Of a DNA stretch of 64,000 nt, positions 4,820 to 26,397 are shown in pieces. How positions within the stretch are numbered: position 1 is the stretch's first letter; every line of letters starts with the position of its first letter. The DNA comes from Candidatus Thorarchaeota archaeon. GTDB lineage: Archaea; Asgardarchaeota; Thorarchaeia; Thorarchaeales; Thorarchaeaceae. The stretch spans positions 64,171-128,170 of the forward strand of contig JACAEL010000038.1 in NCBI GenBank assembly GCA_013388835.1, written 5' to 3'. A model generated the notes under the pieces. That model had not been told where the DNA came from and did no database searches. It saw nothing but the letters and a program-made list of their open reading frames with translations. Position numbers and translations under genes: made by a program.

Positions 4820-5127
4820 AAGTCATCCCTCACAGTGTGATATGTACAAACACACAAAAAAAGTCTGTCCTCTTCGCCGGACGCTCCCGCGAATGGTCCG
4901 AAGGTATCAAGGCCGGACTAGGGCCGACAGATAAGCACTCCCGGCATCCATGTTCCTGCAAGTGAGATGAGACCACAACGGCTCCTAGCGCATGAGGTAC
5001 GACTCGTACGACACAGCCTCAAACTTGCGAGGGCTTTTATCTGTCTGTACGCTTCATACTTTGGATTCCGAACACGAACGAGCGCACACTACCAACAGCA
5101 CTACTGCTGTTCATTCTGATTTCGCCG

Positions 5128-7098
5128 TTGTTCGCCTGCCTGCAGTGTGCAGCAGCACCGAACAGTGTGACAGTAATCTCCGACGTTCTCGGACAGCAAG
5201 CAACTCTTTCTGAAGTCATGCCCAAGACCGTCAGAGTTGCAGTCTATGACGAGAGGAACTATACACTGCCGTCCTATGTGTCGGCGGCACTTGTATCCGT
5301 CAACGGAACAGTCATGGCGGCCTTCCTGTCCAGCCGTGGCTTCGATGTCACTCTTGTTGATGCCTCGGACATCACGTCACATGTCCTTAGCACCGCACGC
5401 TTCGATGTACTGGTTCTGCCTGACAACCTTCCGAGGGAGAACATAACCAATCAGGTCAAGGAGTTCTGGATTGGTGGCGGTGGCGTACTTAGCGTGGATA
5501 GCAGTATCGCATATCTGGGTTATGCGGGAATGCTACCGGCCGAGTCGGAAGGCGATGACGGGTATGGTGTCTATTGGGGATATGTGATAAGCGAAGTGCA
5601 GCAGGTCGCAGCCCTGCATCCGACCACCAAGAGCTACGACATTGGGGATAACCTCAACTCGACACAGCTCGACTGGGCCACATTTTACTGGACCACTCTG
5701 AGTGGAGTGGCAGACGCAGCATTCATGACGAAGATACTGTACGCTACCGGTCACACTGACTGGGCCACGGGTGTTGCCTATGATCCGAGTGAGAGAGGAG
5801 GAAAGGTCGTGCAGCTGCCCGGCTATGGGGATTCCATTGCTCCGGACCTTGCAGACTTGATTGCGGACTCCGTGACCTGGCTGGCACCTGTACCCAAGGC
5901 GCGTGTGGTCTTCGACATGAGCCATCAACCACGGAGGAGCATTGACTTGTGGGACGAACTCTCGGCCTTTCCGAACTCCTACACGGATCTGCGCAATATG
6001 CTTGTGTCCATGAGATTCACAGTTGACAAGCTGTATCCGTCATCCTCAGGGAATCTCACTCAGAACAACCTTGCTCCCTACAACATTCTGATTCTGGTGA
6101 CGCCGGACTACAACTACACCCCTGCTGAGACGTCCGCTGTGTCAGCATGGGTGAACGCCGGTGGCTCCCTGTGGGTGTTCGGTGAGAATCCGGGACTCTC
6201 CAACTTCAAGATGCTGGACGACCAGCTGAACCACATGATGCAGGGAATGGGTGTCCAGATATGGCTCGATGGCGGATCCTCCACCGATGTCACCTACACA
6301 GCCAAGTCCCATATCATCAACGAGAATATCGGAGACTTGTTCTCGACAGCCAAGGGATTCCTCAACCTGACCGGAACAGCTCAGGCACTGTGGTATCAAG
6401 GACCCGATGTGATTGCAGCTGTCAATCAGGTCGGGAAGGGAAGACTCTTCGCCTTTGCTGACATCAACTGGGCACAAGACGCTACGATAGCATCGAGCGA
6501 TAACGAGGACTTCGCCCGCAATGTCGCGGGCTGGCTGAGTGCCGCGGAGTCACAGATTCTCCTCTTCACAGATGAAACGTATAGTGTGAACAAATACAGG
6601 ACGCCTGTGGCCTTGGCTCTCAACGAACTAAAGCTGAATTACCAACTGGTGACAGTGGCGAGCACGATGAACCTTACGCTGGTTCAGGACACGTACGAGT
6701 TAGTGATTGTGGACTCGCCCTCTGGCACAATACATCACACTGTCTTGACCAGTCTGGCCACCTACGTCAAGGGGGGTGGTCGGCTTCTAATGTCCTACTA
6801 CCGTGCTTATGACGTGGCGGACCACCAACTATGGCCTCTGCTTGGTTTCCTGCCACTTACCCCCTTCAGTACTCACGATCCGTTCTACATGTGGGACCCC
6901 AATCATCCCGTGTTCAACCATCCCGTGGACTACGGCGCAACCCAGTTTGACAGTAGTAACATATATGCGGTAGAGGGCTGCATGCTACACCTGTTTGACA
7001 ACGCAACCCTTTTGCAGGTCACAGTTCTCTGCCCAGTACGAACCAGTCTCTCGTCGCCGAGCGAGCTGACCATCAGACACTGTACATCAGCTGGCTGA
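5128..7098 (+). CDS. large surface protein, N-terminal part (frame broken near 7023)
   Basis: The first 650 or so residues of a large exported protein. They contain repeated alpha/beta units of the class-I glutamine-amidotransferase-like fold without a recognisable catalytic triad: FDVLVLPDNLP near 90, YNILILVTPDYNY near 320 and TYELVIVDSPSG near 525. The listed TTG start at 5128 cuts a signal peptide: the frame is open back to 4996 and reads LLLFILISPLFACLQC just upstream, but no ATG/GTG/TTG exists there. A leaderless ATT at 5065, about 28 bases after a CTTTTAT box at 5034-5040, would give a normal signal peptide. The true protein continues in another frame to 7586. Confidence 0.75.
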   Translation: MFACLQCAAAPNSVTVISDVLGQQATLSEVMPKTVRVAVYDERNYTLPSYVSAALVSVNGTVMAAFLSSRGFDVTLVDASDITSHVLSTARFDVLVLPDNLPRENITNQVKEFWIGGGGVLSVDSSIAYLGYAGMLPAESEGDDGYGVYWGYVISEVQQVAALHPTTKSYDIGDNLNSTQLDWATFYWTTLSGVADAAFMTKILYATGHTDWATGVAYDPSERGGKVVQLPGYGDSIAPDLADLIADSVTWLAPVPKARVVFDMSHQPRRSIDLWDELSAFPNSYTDLRNMLVSMRFTVDKLYPSSSGNLTQNNLAPYNILILVTPDYNYTPAETSAVSAWVNAGGSLWVFGENPGLSNFKMLDDQLNHMMQGMGVQIWLDGGSSTDVTYTAKSHIINENIGDLFSTAKGFLNLTGTAQALWYQGPDVIAAVNQVGKGRLFAFADINWAQDATIASSDNEDFARNVAGWLSAAESQILLFTDETYSVNKYRTPVALALNELKLNYQLVTVASTMNLTLVQDTYELVIVDSPSGTIHHTVLTSLATYVKGGGRLLMSYYRAYDVADHQLWPLLGFLPLTPFSTHDPFYMWDPNHPVFNHPVDYGATQFDSSNIYAVEGCMLHLFDNATLLQVTVLCPVRTSLSSPSELTIRHCTSAG

Positions 7099-19046: not shown

Positions 19047-21305
19047 GTGAGTAACACTCGAGGTGAAATGCCGGACCTGACTCACACATTCGTGCTCAAG
19101 AGAGGAGTTGCATTATTGAACACCGAGACCCGACTGTCACCTGCCCAGCTCGCACTGTTTGCTATCCGACATACCCAGTCAGCAGCTATGATAGACAACC
19201 TTTCAGATGTGCTCGCTCTCAGGACGGGGATGGACGCTGCGAGAATAGCCGCACTAACGTGGCTGGCGGGCCAAGCTGTCGGGAGTGACCCAGTCGATCT
19301 CTTCGACAAGACGCGTCCTTTCTCCCATCTCTCATATCACGCCGAGAGAGTAGGGGTTTCTCGAGACGCAGTGCTAGGACGAGCAAGGCACATACTTGAG
19401 CTCGGTATTCCACCATGTGTTCCGCACTCCTTCTCTGGATTAGACTTCTTGGACTCCATGAGCCAGGTTCACTCCATCGGAAGTCACTTCTTCCTTCCCC
19501 TTGATAGAAAGGCCTCGTCAAGACACCTTCTCGGGATGTACTACACGCCATGGCCTGTAGCTAGATACATCGCCGAGCTGACGCTAGGACCTCCCCTGGA
19601 CGCACTGAAGAGACAGTACGCTGGGGACACAGAGGAATTCAGAAGACTTGTGAAGTCGGTCAGTGTGTTGGACCCAGCATGCGGTCCCGGTGTCTTTCTC
19701 TTCGCGTCACTATGTGCTATTGCCCATAGACTGGAGGCTGGGCTTCAAGACTCGCTCATCCCATCAGTGGCAGAGAACCTCTATGGTGTCGACATCGACA
19801 CTTCGGCTCTGGAGATTGCCGACTTTGGACTGAGTCTCCTTGCCGGTACCGTGGCTGAGAGACCATCGAGAAGCATCAGAAGAAGCCTGAAGACCGGCGA
19901 TGCACTCGTATCCATGTCAGGCAGTTGTCGGACTGGCGACCACATCTCCATCAGCGACCCTGAGAAACCGAGGCCCTTTGATTGGTTGGCGGCGTTTCCA
20001 GAGGTACTTGCAGGTTCAGACAGAGGGTTCGACTTCGTTGTGATGAATCCGCCATTTGACAGGATTCGACCGAACCTGCTGGAGTACATGCGTGAGAGGC
20101 TCTCCTACGGTGAGCGGAGCATAAGACTGGACGCGTTCGAGGCGGCAAGACAGCGGATGCGAGAGCGCGCAGCATACTTCAGGCAATGCACCGACTATGA
20201 GTTCTCCGCTACCAGCACCATCGACAGCCACAGACTCTTTGTTGAACGGGCGCTGTCCTTCCTTAGAGATGGTGGTAGACTCGGTGCCGTCGTCCCGTCA
20301 ACCATTCTTGGAGACCGGTCAGCGCGGCTGCTGCGCTCCCACCTCATCGAATCCAACCGGTTGGAGACCGTTGATATCTTTCCGGAAGGTGCGCGCCTAT
20401 TCCCAAGAGTCACTCAGTCTGTGGCCATTCTGACAGTGACAAAGGGGGGAAGCACAGAGACCGCGTCCGTCTCACCACCACTGATGGCCTTGCCCGCGGT
20501 CACAGACATTCAACGAATTCCAGTCTCAATTGCAGAGGTCCGAAGTGTGTTGGGTCATGACCTACCCATATGTCCATTGTCGCATCAAGACCTACGAGTC
20601 CTTAGAGTGATGCAGTCGTTTCCTGCACTGGACGCTCTGCCTTGGCTAACAGTCAGACGTGGTGAACTTGACCTTACACTCGACCGCACACTCATAACAA
20701 CCGACCGGACCCTCTGTCCTCTTGTCCGTGGGGCAAGAATCCGCCGCTTCACACTGGATGTGGATTACATGTCGGAGTTCGTCAGTCTCGAACGACTTGC
20801 CACCGTCAGACGCAAGTCATCACGAACTCACCATGTCTTGTCCACCAGACTGGCATGTCAACAGGTGTCAAACAGAGCTCAGAGATGGCGACTCAAGTTC
20901 GCACCAGTGCCTCCGCGACATGTACTGGCAAACTCGTGCAACTATGTCTATGTTGATGCTGCACTCCCGGGCCTTGAGTACTTCATGCTGGGTCTCCTGA
21001 ACTCCACACTCCTCAATTGGCGGTTCTCGCTTACAAGCACAAACAACCATGTATCGAATCATGAGTTGAAAACCATGCGAGTGTTTGACGCCATGACAGC
21101 GGGACGGGACACCGATGGGTGGATTCGGTTGGTGATAAGAGCCGCAGAACGAGCCTCCTCAGGTCGGTTCGACTCACTTGCCGAACTCGATGCTGCTGTG
21201 TTCCGACTCCACGGCCTCGACGCAACAGACGCGAGGTACATTCTGCATTCTGTAGGGGCTGATGAATACGAGACAGAGCAGGTCATCGTTAATACCAGGT
21301 CCTGA
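19047..21305 (+). CDS. Eco57I-like adenine-N6 DNA methyltransferase
   Basis: A 752-residue SAM-dependent DNA methyltransferase of the type II N6-adenine group. After a helical N-terminal region (1-155), motif X is seen as LGMYYTPWPVARYIAELTL (162-180), motif I as VLDPACGPGVFLFASL (207-222), the acidic ribose-binding region as NLYGVDIDTSALEIADF, and catalytic motif IV as NPPFDR near 335. The C-terminal half (about 440-700) is a target-recognition region. No PD-(D/E)XK or HNH nuclease is seen, so this is a modification subunit rather than a type IIG fusion. GTG at 19047 is listed; ATG at 19068 is an alternative. The next gene is a cytosine methyltransferase. Confidence 0.9.
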   Translation: MSNTRGEMPDLTHTFVLKRGVALLNTETRLSPAQLALFAIRHTQSAAMIDNLSDVLALRTGMDAARIAALTWLAGQAVGSDPVDLFDKTRPFSHLSYHAERVGVSRDAVLGRARHILELGIPPCVPHSFSGLDFLDSMSQVHSIGSHFFLPLDRKASSRHLLGMYYTPWPVARYIAELTLGPPLDALKRQYAGDTEEFRRLVKSVSVLDPACGPGVFLFASLCAIAHRLEAGLQDSLIPSVAENLYGVDIDTSALEIADFGLSLLAGTVAERPSRSIRRSLKTGDALVSMSGSCRTGDHISISDPEKPRPFDWLAAFPEVLAGSDRGFDFVVMNPPFDRIRPNLLEYMRERLSYGERSIRLDAFEAARQRMRERAAYFRQCTDYEFSATSTIDSHRLFVERALSFLRDGGRLGAVVPSTILGDRSARLLRSHLIESNRLETVDIFPEGARLFPRVTQSVAILTVTKGGSTETASVSPPLMALPAVTDIQRIPVSIAEVRSVLGHDLPICPLSHQDLRVLRVMQSFPALDALPWLTVRRGELDLTLDRTLITTDRTLCPLVRGARIRRFTLDVDYMSEFVSLERLATVRRKSSRTHHVLSTRLACQQVSNRAQRWRLKFAPVPPRHVLANSCNYVYVDAALPGLEYFMLGLLNSTLLNWRFSLTSTNNHVSNHELKTMRVFDAMTAGRDTDGWIRLVIRAAERASSGRFDSLAELDAAVFRLHGLDATDARYILHSVGADEYETEQVIVNTRS

Positions 21306-21358: not shown

Positions 21359-22588
21359 TTGACCACACTTCTCGATGCTGCTGCTCAGGAGTCGTTTGGC
21401 AAGTCGACACTCTATGACCACATTGCACCGACTCTCAGCAGACTGGACATGGAGATAATCCGGAGCATTCCTGAAGGAGGCAATTGGCAAGACATCCCGC
21501 TGGAGGTGGCGAGCAAGTCGGTTCGGATAATGCGTATTCGTGCATCCGGAGGCAGGACCACTTACTATGGTAGACTCAGGAGAGATGCTCCCAGTCCGAC
21601 GGTAAACACGTTCTTTCACAGGCCCGGCAATGGTTCGTTCGTGCATCCTGTGCAAGACCGGATGATCTCCCTTCGGGAGGCAGCACGTCTCCAGTCATTC
21701 CCCGACTCATTCAGATTCGTCGGCCCTCGCTCATCCGTCTACAGACAGATTGGCAATGCCGTGCCGCCGCTTCTCGCCTATGCTCTCGGCCGTTGCGTCC
21801 ACAAGAGCCGCGTTGTGGACATGTTCTGCGGCGCGGGAGGCCTGTCTCAAGGCTTGAAGATGGCGGGCCATTCAGTTGTAGCCGCCTTTGACAGAGAACG
21901 GCACATGTGTTCGACCTTCAGACTCAATCACCCCGACGCACTTGTCAGAGAGGTCGCTGTCAGTAGTCTGTGTCTGCCAAGCATCGTGGAGGACATCGAG
22001 TCCGTTCTCCGAGGCCGTACACTTGGCCTGCTGGCCGGTGGCCCTCCATGCCAAGGCTTCTCCACAGCTGGAAGGATGGACAAGACTGACCCGCGCAACT
22101 CCCTTGTGTTCTCAATGACCGACCTTGTGAGAGAGCTGCAGCCTGAGGCCGTGCTCATCGAGAACGTCCTTGGTCTGCGGTCCTTCAGAGGAGGCGACAC
22201 AATTGCTGACTTGACAGGTCGACTGAATGAGCTGGGATATGAGACTGAGACGATGGTGCTCAAGGCGGAACAGTATGGTGTGCCGCAACGTAGAAGGCGA
22301 GTCTTCTTGGTTGCCAGCCGTGACGGTGAGAGACCAGAAGCTCCACGGACCATTCTGCCGGAGTATGCGCGGACTCGCAGATCGGGGAGTCGGTCAGCCA
22401 GTCACGCTGAAAGTGCGCCCATCACGGTGGAGGCAGCGATAGGAGACCTACCCGCGATACCATCTGGTGGCGGAGACCAAGTGATGACATATAGACCCGA
22501 GTGGACACGGACCGACTATCAACGGTATAGCAGAGGAACGCTTGACTCTGGCAGCTTCTTGGACCGTCTGTCACGTGTTAACACCTGA
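21359..22588 (+). CDS. circularly permuted C5-cytosine DNA methyltransferase
   Basis: All conserved m5C-methyltransferase motifs are present but rotated. The N-terminal 145 residues hold what is normally the C-terminal end: the end of the target-recognition domain (IPEGGNWQDIP, GGRTTYYGRL), motif IX (LREAARLQSFPD, 105-116) and motif X (YRQIGNAVPPLLA, 128-140). Motif I follows (VVDMFCGAGGLSQGL, 152-166), then motif IV with catalytic Cys231 (GGPPCQGFS), motif VI ENV (268-270) and motif VIII (QYGVPQRRRR, 305-314). The permutation point lies inside the TRD. M.BssHII is a known precedent for this order. The start is TTG at 21359; the frame is open further upstream into the previous gene, so the start is uncertain. 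Confidence 0.9.
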   Translation: MTTLLDAAAQESFGKSTLYDHIAPTLSRLDMEIIRSIPEGGNWQDIPLEVASKSVRIMRIRASGGRTTYYGRLRRDAPSPTVNTFFHRPGNGSFVHPVQDRMISLREAARLQSFPDSFRFVGPRSSVYRQIGNAVPPLLAYALGRCVHKSRVVDMFCGAGGLSQGLKMAGHSVVAAFDRERHMCSTFRLNHPDALVREVAVSSLCLPSIVEDIESVLRGRTLGLLAGGPPCQGFSTAGRMDKTDPRNSLVFSMTDLVRELQPEAVLIENVLGLRSFRGGDTIADLTGRLNELGYETETMVLKAEQYGVPQRRRRVFLVASRDGERPEAPRTILPEYARTRRSGSRSASHAESAPITVEAAIGDLPAIPSGGGDQVMTYRPEWTRTDYQRYSRGTLDSGSFLDRLSRVNT

Positions 22589-22658: not shown

Positions 22659-24362
22659 ATGCTCTTGGACGTGCGGGGACCAAAGACCTTGGCCTCGCTC
22701 AAGTTCACGACCACTACGGTGAGTGAGGACCTGCTCGAAGAGATTCTGGGCAGGTATTATGAGCTGGCAGGCGTAGACGCAGTCAACTCCGTGGTCCCAG
22801 TCAGCCTCCATCAGAAGACCTGCTATATCTGTCGCACTACCGACACTAGTGTGTTGGTCGCAGTGTGTGACTCAAACCATGTGAGTCCTCTCGATCTTGA
22901 GAGGCTGACATCGCTGTGCAATGAGCTACAGAGGACCCTGCCCATTCGCCAACGGGGTGAGATTCGTTCCGACTTTGTACTGGCGGCTCGACGTCATCTG
23001 CAGAAGAGCCTGAAGGTGTGCTTTGTCGCGCAGTCGGATCCGTTGCATCACAACACCACCATAGCAGCAGTCGAACAGGTCTTCGCGAACTGCTCGGATG
23101 AGATGAGTCCTTTCACGAAACCAATCTCCATTGGTCCCCTCCTGGTCGAGGCGGCCCGATGCAACACCGAGGACTTGGCCACAGGGCTCTGGCCCGTGCA
23201 CCTGAATGACGTCAACATCCTTGCCATTGTGGTGGACTCTGGTCTTTCAGCAGAGTACTATGCGAGTGTGGCAAGTGTCATTCATGACAACTCCCAAGCC
23301 CACATTGTTGCGCTGCCAGCTTCAGAAGAAGACCTCGACTTCACAGAGGAGATTGCTGAATCCAACGCTATCGGTTTCGTCGATGCGGTACCGACGGTGG
23401 CTTCGGACCTGTTCTTCTCCACGCTTGCCGCCTCTGGACAGATGGATATGGAGCTGGACGAGGCAAAAGACCAATGGGTGTTCGACGAAGCAATCAATCA
23501 GTACGTGACTCGTGATCAGGTCCCTTCAAAGCCCTTGGGTCATCAGGCATTCTTCGTCGTGGACAGGACAAATGGCGAACCGGTCTTCTCTTACTACTAC
23601 GAGCACAAGTCGGTCGTCCTGGAGAGGGCACCCAATGTCGTTGCCGCCATATCGATGTTTACTGTCGAGAGCGACGGGGACCACAAGACCTCGGTGTTCA
23701 GAGCAGGCGACTTGGACTATGTGCTCATCGAACGAGAGAACCTGATCTTCACGCTGGTCACGGGCAGTCAGTACAATGTCGAGCAACTGCGCGAGAGATT
23801 CTCATTTCTTCCCGAACTGTACTTGGACGAGCGCCCTGAAGTTGTATCGCGCCCTGACGACCCATATTCCTCACCAGCCTTCACGCTCAAGCTACTCGCG
23901 ACTCTGCCCGGTGAGCAGCTCTGTGACAGGCATGTGCCCTACAAGATAAAGGCGCCAGACTGGGAGAGGTTTGAGTCGGCGATGGTAGCAGACTTCCTCG
24001 AGGCAGTTTGGGACAGCATTGATAACCAGTCCAAGTTGTCTAGGTACGTGCAAGAGCAGGCGGGGCCTCAGATGACATTGGGTGCGCTCCAATTCCTGAA
24101 ATCGCTGTCTGCTATCGGATTCAGACTGGACCTAGAAGCAACAGATGTGCCACGGATGATTAGTCCTCCAAGTGAGGATCTACTCAAAACCTACTCTGAG
24201 CTCAACGAGATTGTGAGCCTCGCTGACGGGATGCTCACAATAGAGGAGATTGGCGCAATGACAGGAGTGTCAACCGACGTGCTTCTGCATGTCTTCTCGG
24301 AGCTCTACAAGAGAGGCTCAGTGAGTCTTGAATCCACGAGCAGTACTGACGGACTAAGTTGA
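22659..24362 (+). CDS. longin-domain protein with winged-helix C-terminus
   Basis: A 567-residue protein. A longin-like fold is suggested at about residues 290-370 (HQAFFVVDRTNGEPVFSYYY ... DLDYVLIERENLIFTLVTGS), the pattern of five strands and two helices used by small-GTPase platforms and SNARE-type regulators. The N-terminal 270 residues show a further alpha/beta pattern that may be a diverged longin pair. The end (about 515-557, LTIEEIGAMTGVSTDVLLHVFSELYKRGSV) reads as a winged helix. It precedes the GTPase fusion gene by 76 bases on the same strand, so the two probably act together. No enzyme motif is seen. The longin call is from pattern, not search. Confidence 0.65.
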   Translation: MLLDVRGPKTLASLKFTTTTVSEDLLEEILGRYYELAGVDAVNSVVPVSLHQKTCYICRTTDTSVLVAVCDSNHVSPLDLERLTSLCNELQRTLPIRQRGEIRSDFVLAARRHLQKSLKVCFVAQSDPLHHNTTIAAVEQVFANCSDEMSPFTKPISIGPLLVEAARCNTEDLATGLWPVHLNDVNILAIVVDSGLSAEYYASVASVIHDNSQAHIVALPASEEDLDFTEEIAESNAIGFVDAVPTVASDLFFSTLAASGQMDMELDEAKDQWVFDEAINQYVTRDQVPSKPLGHQAFFVVDRTNGEPVFSYYYEHKSVVLERAPNVVAAISMFTVESDGDHKTSVFRAGDLDYVLIERENLIFTLVTGSQYNVEQLRERFSFLPELYLDERPEVVSRPDDPYSSPAFTLKLLATLPGEQLCDRHVPYKIKAPDWERFESAMVADFLEAVWDSIDNQSKLSRYVQEQAGPQMTLGALQFLKSLSAIGFRLDLEATDVPRMISPPSEDLLKTYSELNEIVSLADGMLTIEEIGAMTGVSTDVLLHVFSELYKRGSVSLESTSSTDGLS

Positions 24363-24438: not shown

Positions 24439-26397
24439 ATGATACACAACGTCCTTCTCATTGACAAGGTGGATGGAAGCGTCATCACTCGGGTCCGATT
24501 CTGGAAGATTGACTTCACAGAACAGCACATAGCCGAGTTCCTAGCAGGCTATCGTGACCTGATGAGCACACAAGGACTGGCAAGCGACACTCCCATCTTC
24601 GTCGGCAAGCACAAGGTCTTCCATGGACCAGTCGACGATGAGATGCTTCTTCTCTTTGTCACGGACGGCAGAGACGAGGACAGAGTAATCAGGCACAAGG
24701 TCAGAGAGGGCGCATCAAGAATCTCCGTTGCACTCCGAGGCAACACCATAAGCTACATCCGCGACAACCTGGACGAGCTCCTCGGAGAACTCATCTTCAC
24801 AAGGTTCAAAGTGAGCTTTGTGGGAAGTGGTGGTGTCGGAAAGAGCACACTCTTGAGGCTTCTGTTCGGTCGAGAGCCCGCGCCTGGTGGCTATGTCCCC
24901 ACCATAAACGTTGCAGTCGACTCCTCCGAGACAATCCAGTTTGGCACATTCATGGTGACAATGTGGGACTTCGCGGGACAGGCGGTCTTCCAGGACCTCT
25001 GGGCGTTCTATTTCCAGGGCACTGACGTCATATTCCTGATCACTGACTCGAGCTTTAGGAATGTCATGGCGACAAAGACACTCCTCCGCAACATACGGAA
25101 GGAGGCGCCTGCGGTACCCCTGTTCATAATTGCAAATAAGCAGGACCTGCCCGAGTCAATGAAGGCTGACAAGATACAGCGCCTGTTGGGGGCCCCAACC
25201 TTTCCAATGGTCGCGACAGACAAGGCACGACGCGAGGAGTTCATACGGCTCATGCTTGAGGTTGCTGCAAAGACAGTCGGAGTACAGCTGCCAGATATGC
25301 CATTGAGCGAGATGATCACGGTCCACAGGAAGACTGATGCTCGCGACATGCCGGACGCTATCGACACAAGCGGACCAAGGCCCAAGTCCGCCCAGACTGG
25401 ACTTGAGCATGTGCCATATGAAGCCCCCACCGAAGACCTCCCACCGGAATCGCACGCTGTTGGGCCGCCAACAGAGACAACCGGGTCGGCGCCCACGGTT
25501 GCAGAGGCAGAGTCTGGTCCGAGTGATGAAGCCAAGAAGGTGTCGGACACACGCGGTCCGTCGAAGCTGTTACAGCTGACCCTGATGGTGAGAAGAGAGG
25601 AGGCATTCGAAACCGTGCTTGAGCTTCCGTACGCCGAGGAGTTGTCCAGCGGCAGTCCAATCGCCGGACTGGTGTCTGCACTCGACTCATTCGGTGGTAT
25701 AGATGCGGAATCAGAAACAGCAGACAAGACAGACGCTCTTGAGACCATCGAACACGAGGGCAACCTTGTGATGGTGGAGAAGTCGAAGCACTTCGTCATG
25801 GCACTGACAGTCACCAATGACACTGACGAGGACGCACGTAGGCGGACCATGGCCTCAGCACTGCTTGACATAGAACGCGCCTATGCCGACTCATGGGACT
25901 CTTGGGATGGCAGCACTGACGCATTTGAGGGCGCAGTGTTCGCAATTGTCGAACGATTTCCACTCCGAGCCATCAGTGACGACTACACGGTTCGTGCTCG
26001 CGAGGTGGGACAGCCTCTGCCCTTCAACAGCAGAGAGGTGGGACGAGCGTTGGTCACTGTCTTGAAGGCCATCGAACAGAACACCACGGTCGGAACGCTT
26101 GTCAGCAAGCTAGACCTACCCCGGTCGACCGTGATTGGCAGCCTCCAGATACTTGCCCGGTTCGGATGGGTTGACTTCAAGGTCGAACTGAATCCGAAGA
26201 GTATCCCCAAGAAGGTTGGAGAGGTGGATGACGATCTAAGAAAGACCTACGGCGATGTGATTGTCAAGTTTGTCGACCTCTGTGACGGCAGGACCACGCT
26301 TGAGGATGTGGTGAAGAAAGTCAGTCTCAGTCTGCCAGCGATGCGCTTCGTGGCCACGAAGCTTGTGTTGCAGGGAGTCCTTGAGATTGTCGCCTAG
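24439..26397 (+). CDS. longin - Arf-like GTPase - longin-like - winged-helix fusion
   Basis: A 652-residue multidomain protein typical of Asgard archaea. Residues 1-115 are longin/roadblock-like (MIHNVLLIDKVDGSVI). Residues 122-280 are an Arf/Rag-type small GTPase: G1 GSGGVGKST (about 129-137), switch II WDFAGQ (about 176-181) and G4 NKQD (about 233-236). A low-complexity Pro/Glu/Ser linker (about 300-370) follows, then a second longin-like region (about 373-520, LLQLTLMVRREEAF ... FAIVERFPL) and one or two winged helices to the end (TLVSKLDLPRSTVIGSLQIL; TTLEDVVKKVSLSLPAMRF). The layout suggests a nucleotide switch with its own regulatory platform and a DNA- or protein-binding tail. Convergent with the beta-CASP gene, one base apart. 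Confidence 0.8.
   Translation: MIHNVLLIDKVDGSVITRVRFWKIDFTEQHIAEFLAGYRDLMSTQGLASDTPIFVGKHKVFHGPVDDEMLLLFVTDGRDEDRVIRHKVREGASRISVALRGNTISYIRDNLDELLGELIFTRFKVSFVGSGGVGKSTLLRLLFGREPAPGGYVPTINVAVDSSETIQFGTFMVTMWDFAGQAVFQDLWAFYFQGTDVIFLITDSSFRNVMATKTLLRNIRKEAPAVPLFIIANKQDLPESMKADKIQRLLGAPTFPMVATDKARREEFIRLMLEVAAKTVGVQLPDMPLSEMITVHRKTDARDMPDAIDTSGPRPKSAQTGLEHVPYEAPTEDLPPESHAVGPPTETTGSAPTVAEAESGPSDEAKKVSDTRGPSKLLQLTLMVRREEAFETVLELPYAEELSSGSPIAGLVSALDSFGGIDAESETADKTDALETIEHEGNLVMVEKSKHFVMALTVTNDTDEDARRRTMASALLDIERAYADSWDSWDGSTDAFEGAVFAIVERFPLRAISDDYTVRAREVGQPLPFNSREVGRALVTVLKAIEQNTTVGTLVSKLDLPRSTVIGSLQILARFGWVDFKVELNPKSIPKKVGEVDDDLRKTYGDVIVKFVDLCDGRTTLEDVVKKVSLSLPAMRFVATKLVLQGVLEIVA

Follow-up and report, generated by a model that had tools for sequence, protein, structure and literature searches.

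The region described here lies in a window of 64,000 nucleotides of DNA from a Candidatus Thorarchaeota archaeon. Two DNA methyltransferase (MTase) genes, M6A and M5C, stand there with a gap of 53 bp between them and M6A upstream. They are followed by c2, which starts 70 bp after M5C, and by c3. The features, with the evidence for each in brackets, are as follows.

19047 to 21305, forward strand: M6A, adenine-N6 DNA methyltransferase of Alw26I type, 752 aa, with NPPF and DPACGPG motifs (TIGR02987, PF07669, PDLC03237)
21359 to 22588, forward strand: M5C, circularly permuted C5-cytosine DNA methyltransferase, 409 aa (PF00145, PDLC03237, AlphaFold2 model)
21410 to 21643, forward strand: N-terminal conserved part of the target-recognition domain (TRD) of M5C, residues 18-95, LYDH...GGNWQDIP...GGRTTYYGRL (alignments)
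21668 to 21706, forward strand: M5C motif IX, SLREAARLQSFPD, REAARLQSFPD (invariant alignment columns)
21743 to 21769, forward strand: M5C motif X, RQIGNAVPP (alignment, motif check in relatives)
21818 to 21841, forward strand: M5C motif I, AdoMet binding, DMFCGAGG (alignment, motif check in relatives)
22037 to 22063, forward strand: M5C motif IV with catalytic Cys231, GGPPCQGFS (motif check in relatives)
22160 to 22168, forward strand: M5C motif VI, ENV (alignment, motif check in relatives)
22286 to 22300, forward strand: M5C motif VIII, QRRRR (alignment, motif check in relatives)
22659 to 24362, forward strand: c2, predicted pseudo-GTPase and roadblock/longin protein (synteny, weak Fuz_longin_1 match, AlphaFold2 model)
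24439 to 26397, forward strand: c3, protein with an Arf/Ras/Roc-type GTPase domain (Pfam, synteny)

The M5C reading frame is uninterrupted and begins with a TTG start two codons past an in-frame TAG. Its motifs come in the order IX, X, I, IV, VI, VIII, with IX and X ahead of I to VIII as in other circularly permuted C5-MTases. PF00145 matches the protein twice and in swapped order, first over profile positions 247-320 and then over 2-169 (whole-protein E 2e-58). When M5C is rotated at residue 146, so that its first 146 residues are moved to the end, the result is a single unbroken match to positions 2-319 of the 324 in the profile, with the score unchanged. The motifs recur with few substitutions in the relatives that were checked, and the catalytic PPCQGFS is kept in every full-length one. 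Against a linear homologue (L127), residues 6-150 of M5C correspond to residues 234-371 and residues 152-408 to residues 17-259, and the counterpart of the N-terminal TRD segment comes after motif VIII. By this alignment, the break falls in variable sequence that lies past motif VIII and ahead of most of the TRD, in agreement with a preliminary description of this DNA that had put it within the target-recognition region.

The AlphaFold2 model of M5C has a pLDDT of 87 and a pTM of 0.89. The best structural match of its catalytic domain is M.HaeIII (Z 20.1), and DNMT1 and M.HhaI were also matched. Foldseek and VIA-align follow chain order and matched the catalytic domain alone, so they are uninformative on the permutation either way. 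As modelled, M5C has the ordinary two-domain fold of C5-MTases, and the permutation simply relocates its termini to the variable stretch that precedes the TRD. Because the original termini are linked and the new ones lie in a variable segment, catalysis would be as in any C5-MTase, with a predicted attack by Cys231 and methyl transfer from AdoMet. A second C5-MTase gene, which is linear, is present in the window's own genome (G000:C92:41037-41984, L080). This copy, M.HhaI, M.HaeIII, and DNMT1 share the catalytic-domain fold and motifs with M5C but have the canonical order I to X.

The preliminary description had reported an intact circularly permuted C5-MTase in an archaeon and had named a misassembly, or two partial genes joined together, as what would speak against it. 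Nothing was found in favor of such an artefact at 21359-22588. About 30 independent genomes have the permuted arrangement at this location, it is also found in bacteria, the motifs are intact, and the gene is under purifying selection. These comparative data rule out a misassembly or gene fusion, which is given next to no credence here. At the level of sequence, the open reading frame is confirmed as a real, intact, circularly permuted cytosine C5-MTase.

The same description was right that M5C is intact and permuted, but the m6A partner immediately upstream had been overlooked. The best NCBIfam match of M6A is TIGR02987, met_A_Alw26 (E 2.5e-69), with 234 bits, which is under the curated cut-off of 353.5, and the protein also matches PF07669. 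The PADLOC profile PDLC03237 (1036 positions, m6A plus permuted m5C) spans both proteins and is the top profile for each. It matches M6A with E 3.1e-57 and M5C over positions 653-1012 with E 9.3e-117, the best of 62 families. Profiles of DISARM (DrmMII) and Druantia (DruM) were weaker than PDLC03237 on M5C, and no such system was found among the neighbors examined.

M.BssHII belongs to a different system, with the site GCGCGC, and it is not known to have an m6A partner. It had been put forward as a bacterial precedent for M5C. This holds in that M.BssHII is a natural circular permutation with its new N-terminus in the variable region (PMC5944983), but the profile matches of M5C do not support it as the nearest kin and point to the Alw26I/Eco31I/Esp3I/BsaI family as the closer precedent. 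Natural permuted C5-MTases include M.BssHII, M.Alw26I, M2.Eco31I, M.Esp3I, and M2.BsaI, and 22 more from REBASE brought the total to 27 in 2018 (PMC5944983). The permutation in itself is therefore already known, and M5C is, by its profile matches, a member of the documented permuted Type IIS MTases. An asymmetric site requires one MTase per strand (PMC3874165), and the products of the Eco31I pair are GGT(m5C)TC and GAG(m6A)CC (PMC4659465). In Lactococcus and E. faecalis, the bacterial permuted m5C homologues form one protein with the m6A half, and in E. coli the homologue is encoded by a separate gene; in all three they adjoin TIGR02986 endonucleases. Thermus phage phiLo (L124, MH673673) possesses a permuted m5C-MTase at 4992-6191 that is 43.5% identical to the M5C of the window, and no m6A-MTase of Alw26I type was found in the stretch of this phage that was examined.

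The two genes that follow the MTases adjoin them in most genomes of the family. The model of c2 contains a GTPase-like part (116-263) and a roadblock/longin part (292-393), with matches to Rag/Ragulator, TRAPP, and MglB proteins at Z 10-12, and its sequence has a weak MON1/HPS1/FUZ longin match. As far as shown, c2 has no part in the modification activity. Together, c2 and c3 may form a pseudo-GTPase/GTPase pair, which would be of interest for eukaryote-like trafficking or signaling.

A search of the 227 genomes of the phylum with PDLC03237 at E 1e-20 gave matches in 106. Those that come from families other than the window's mostly resemble ordinary linear C5-MTases. Of the 47 genomes in the window's own Thorarchaeota family, 33 have a detected M5C, so the permuted enzyme, an arrangement that had been called rare, is not rare there. 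The nearest named relative that was found, Ca. Thorarchaeota AB_25, belongs to the same family. The gene order M6A, M5C, c2, c3 is kept at about 30 loci, at one chromosomal place. The m5C tree follows that of rpoB (Mantel r 0.70, with 0 of 2000 permutations as high), and dN/dS is 0.06-0.25 across both M6A and M5C in the pairs tested, which indicates purifying selection. The two deepest-branching genomes under a midpoint root have c2, c3, and c4 and no pair. In G184 (L074, G184:C1 about 928700-931850), M6A and c2 are kept with no room between them for M5C. Seven metagenome-assembled contigs (L046, L048, L013, L054, L065, L067, and L077) end inside or beside the MTase genes. These ends may reflect strain variation there and could account for some of the apparent absences.

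The Alw26I-type endonuclease (TIGR02986/PF09665) had no match in the window's own genome. It was found in two of the 47 family genomes, G186 and G199, at loci away from the conserved place. The M6A proteins of these two systems (L043 in G186, L073 in G199) have 820-838 aa, their m5C halves group together with full support, and the endonuclease match of L073 is partial and at a contig end. G199 carries the core M6A-M5C pair in addition to its endonuclease gene. The distribution suggests that the pair is a persistent, vertically inherited modification that acts in this family without an endonuclease.

The GTCTC core site known for the enzyme family was named as a hypothesis ahead of any k-mer count. 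In a maximal-order Markov scan, GTCTC had the lowest ratio between genomes with and without the pair, first of 512 5-mers. In site-to-product tests, the change of C3 to T in GTCTC ranked first of 1280; C3 is the base methylated by the bacterial homologues, and the product rises most there. By z under a codon-shuffle null that keeps proteins and codon usage constant, TGTCTC took rank 1 and AGTCTC rank 3 among 2080 6-mers. GTCTC itself was only 11th of 512 5-mers by z under this null because it includes the enriched GGTCTC.

Whole-genome 6-mer counts, with the reversed word as the control, gave the clearest contrast. The ratio of TGTCTC to the control was 0.17-0.59 (median 0.33) in the 33 genomes with M5C. 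It was 0.89, 0.90, 0.98, and 1.00 in four well-covered genomes without M5C, which represent three lineages. These are the top four ratios, with a chance of 1.5e-5 if labels are exchangeable, and kinship reduces the four to three independent events. Two close contrasts are available. The ratio for the site was 1.00 in G191 and 0.33 in G192, with 0.95 and 1.57 for TGTTTC and 1.04 and 1.22 for TGTCTT. In G184 and G185, the site stood at 0.89 and 0.27, TGTTTC at 1.08 and 1.63, and TGTCTT at 1.09 and 1.41. In both, the loss of the site is accompanied by a gain of TGTTTC that exceeds the gain of TGTCTT. G184 has naturally lost M5C and retained M6A, and its site frequency is near-normal, so the m5C half is the likely cause of the depletion. 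G191 also has no c2, and its call of M5C absence rests on 93% completeness; the locus may be unassembled. Ten incomplete genomes with no detected M5C are all depleted (0.24-0.47), including G213 (77% complete), where M6A is present and the ratio is 0.29. For these genomes the prediction is that M5C is unassembled or was recently lost.

The depletion is mild in the window's own genome, with a TGTCTC ratio of 0.58 and codon-shuffle ratios of 0.82, 0.89, and 0.61 when T, A, or C comes before GTCTC. GGTCTC is much less depleted than the other N-GTCTC words. It is over-represented in several genomes with M5C, reaching 2.9-fold in the coding DNA of G181, where no longer shared motif was found that would explain the excess. 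Either plain GTCTC is not the exact target or GGTCTC is subject to some other force. With the codon-shuffle null, the product is enriched less strongly than the site is depleted, and part of this enrichment is also seen in genomes without M5C. Two other words were strongly depleted in the DNA sampled from the window's own genome under this null, CCAGG (0.40) and GATC (0.45). CCAGG is low in other Thorarchaeota sets too, and GATC is low in most and over-represented in G181. Other methyltransferases or restriction are possibly responsible.

The k-mer signal could be a composition effect of certain lineages that has no relation to the pair. The independent lineages without M5C are few, and AAATC and GCCGGC also differ between the M5C groups. 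However, the word was named in advance, and the effect is gone in three separate lineages without M5C, including close relatives of genomes with it. The median ratio in 180 genomes of other families is 0.98, with one genome below 0.6. A composition effect is accordingly held to be quite improbable. Nearly as little weight is given to the proposal that the pair supplies the modification in a functional restriction-modification system, with an endonuclease that is not of Alw26I type or is encoded elsewhere, and that the sites are lost through avoidance of cleavage. The enzyme family is one of restriction-modification, and G186 and G199 do carry a TIGR02986 endonuclease with the pair, but no further Alw26I-type endonuclease was found in the family genomes searched, and the conserved neighbors encode longin/GTPase proteins and no nuclease. 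The loss of M5C alone would be expected to be lethal if a cognate nuclease were active, whereas G184 has lost it, has kept M6A, and has near-normal sites.

It is conceivable, if rather doubtful, that the pair serves as a shield, or 'vaccine', against Alw26I-type systems that circulate in Thorarchaeota and their viruses. The biochemistry would be as in the preferred explanation, and the selective reason would differ. The endonuclease genes of G186 and G199, the second beside a core pair, are in keeping with such a role, as are the m5C relatives on viral contigs and in phage phiLo. Against it, the nuclease occurs in just two of 47 genomes, and stable inheritance keeps the pair at a single location. 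In the explanation preferred here, which is considered very probable, M6A and M5C each form one half of a modification enzyme of Alw26I/Eco31I/Esp3I type that works with no cognate endonuclease and has long been persistent and active on a GTCTC-type site.

On this preferred explanation, M5C would make GT(m5C)TC and M6A would presumably make GAG(m6A)C on the opposite strand, each enzyme marking one strand because the site is not palindromic. There would be a preference in these archaea against G preceding the site (HGTCTC). If M5C has methylated HGTCTC over a long period, the resulting m5C would deaminate to T and the site would wear away; deamination is the likely cause of the site loss. As the loss is genome-wide, the pair appears to have been methylating over a long time. 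Judged from sequence data, it appears to be a persistent modification without restriction that operates in vivo on GT(m5C)TC/GAG(m6A)C.

The pair shares with the Alw26I group (M.Alw26I, M1 and M2.Eco31I, M.Esp3I, M2.BsaI) a permuted m5C-MTase with an Alw26I-type m6A-MTase, the match to PDLC03237, and a site depletion that is consistent with GT(m5C)TC. As in Eco31I, the two MTase genes are adjacent. It differs from this group in that the endonuclease is missing from its own genome and from 45 of the 47 family genomes, in its vertical inheritance in an archaeal family, in apparently disfavoring G before the site, and in an M6A that is under the curated TIGR02987 cut-off. Other orphan MTases persist in archaea, such as the HG2 group for CCWGG and those for CTAG/GATC in haloarchaea. 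They too are conserved across a taxon with no endonuclease, and in Halobacteria they have site-frequency signatures (PMC10609329, PMC6471742), but no permutation is described for them, nor a set of two enzymes that share an asymmetric site. In the survey of these MTases, the one Asgard genome, from Lokiarchaeota, had no m5C MTase gene. A literature search for DNA methylation in Asgard archaea found no relevant paper.

What is new is that a Thorarchaeota family keeps an M6A-M5C pair at one chromosomal place, usually without an endonuclease, and that its predicted target is depleted genome-wide. What began as a curiosity of protein architecture is now likely to be an active system of chromosomal methylation in Asgard archaea. 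The permuted C5-MTase has been retained through the divergence of most genera of the family, and its topology is thus evolutionarily stable. The wear of the site shows that the target of a methyltransferase can be assigned by sequence statistics alone. The predicted site and modified bases can be checked in existing long-read data, and G184 and the lineages without M5C serve as natural knock-outs. The biological use may be protection from GTCTC-type restriction or an epigenetic mark. On balance, the pair is probably of Alw26I type with its restriction role lost, and would now provide a stably inherited, family-wide, two-base epigenetic mark at HGTCTC, with m5C on one strand and m6A on the other, encoded beside longin/GTPase genes.
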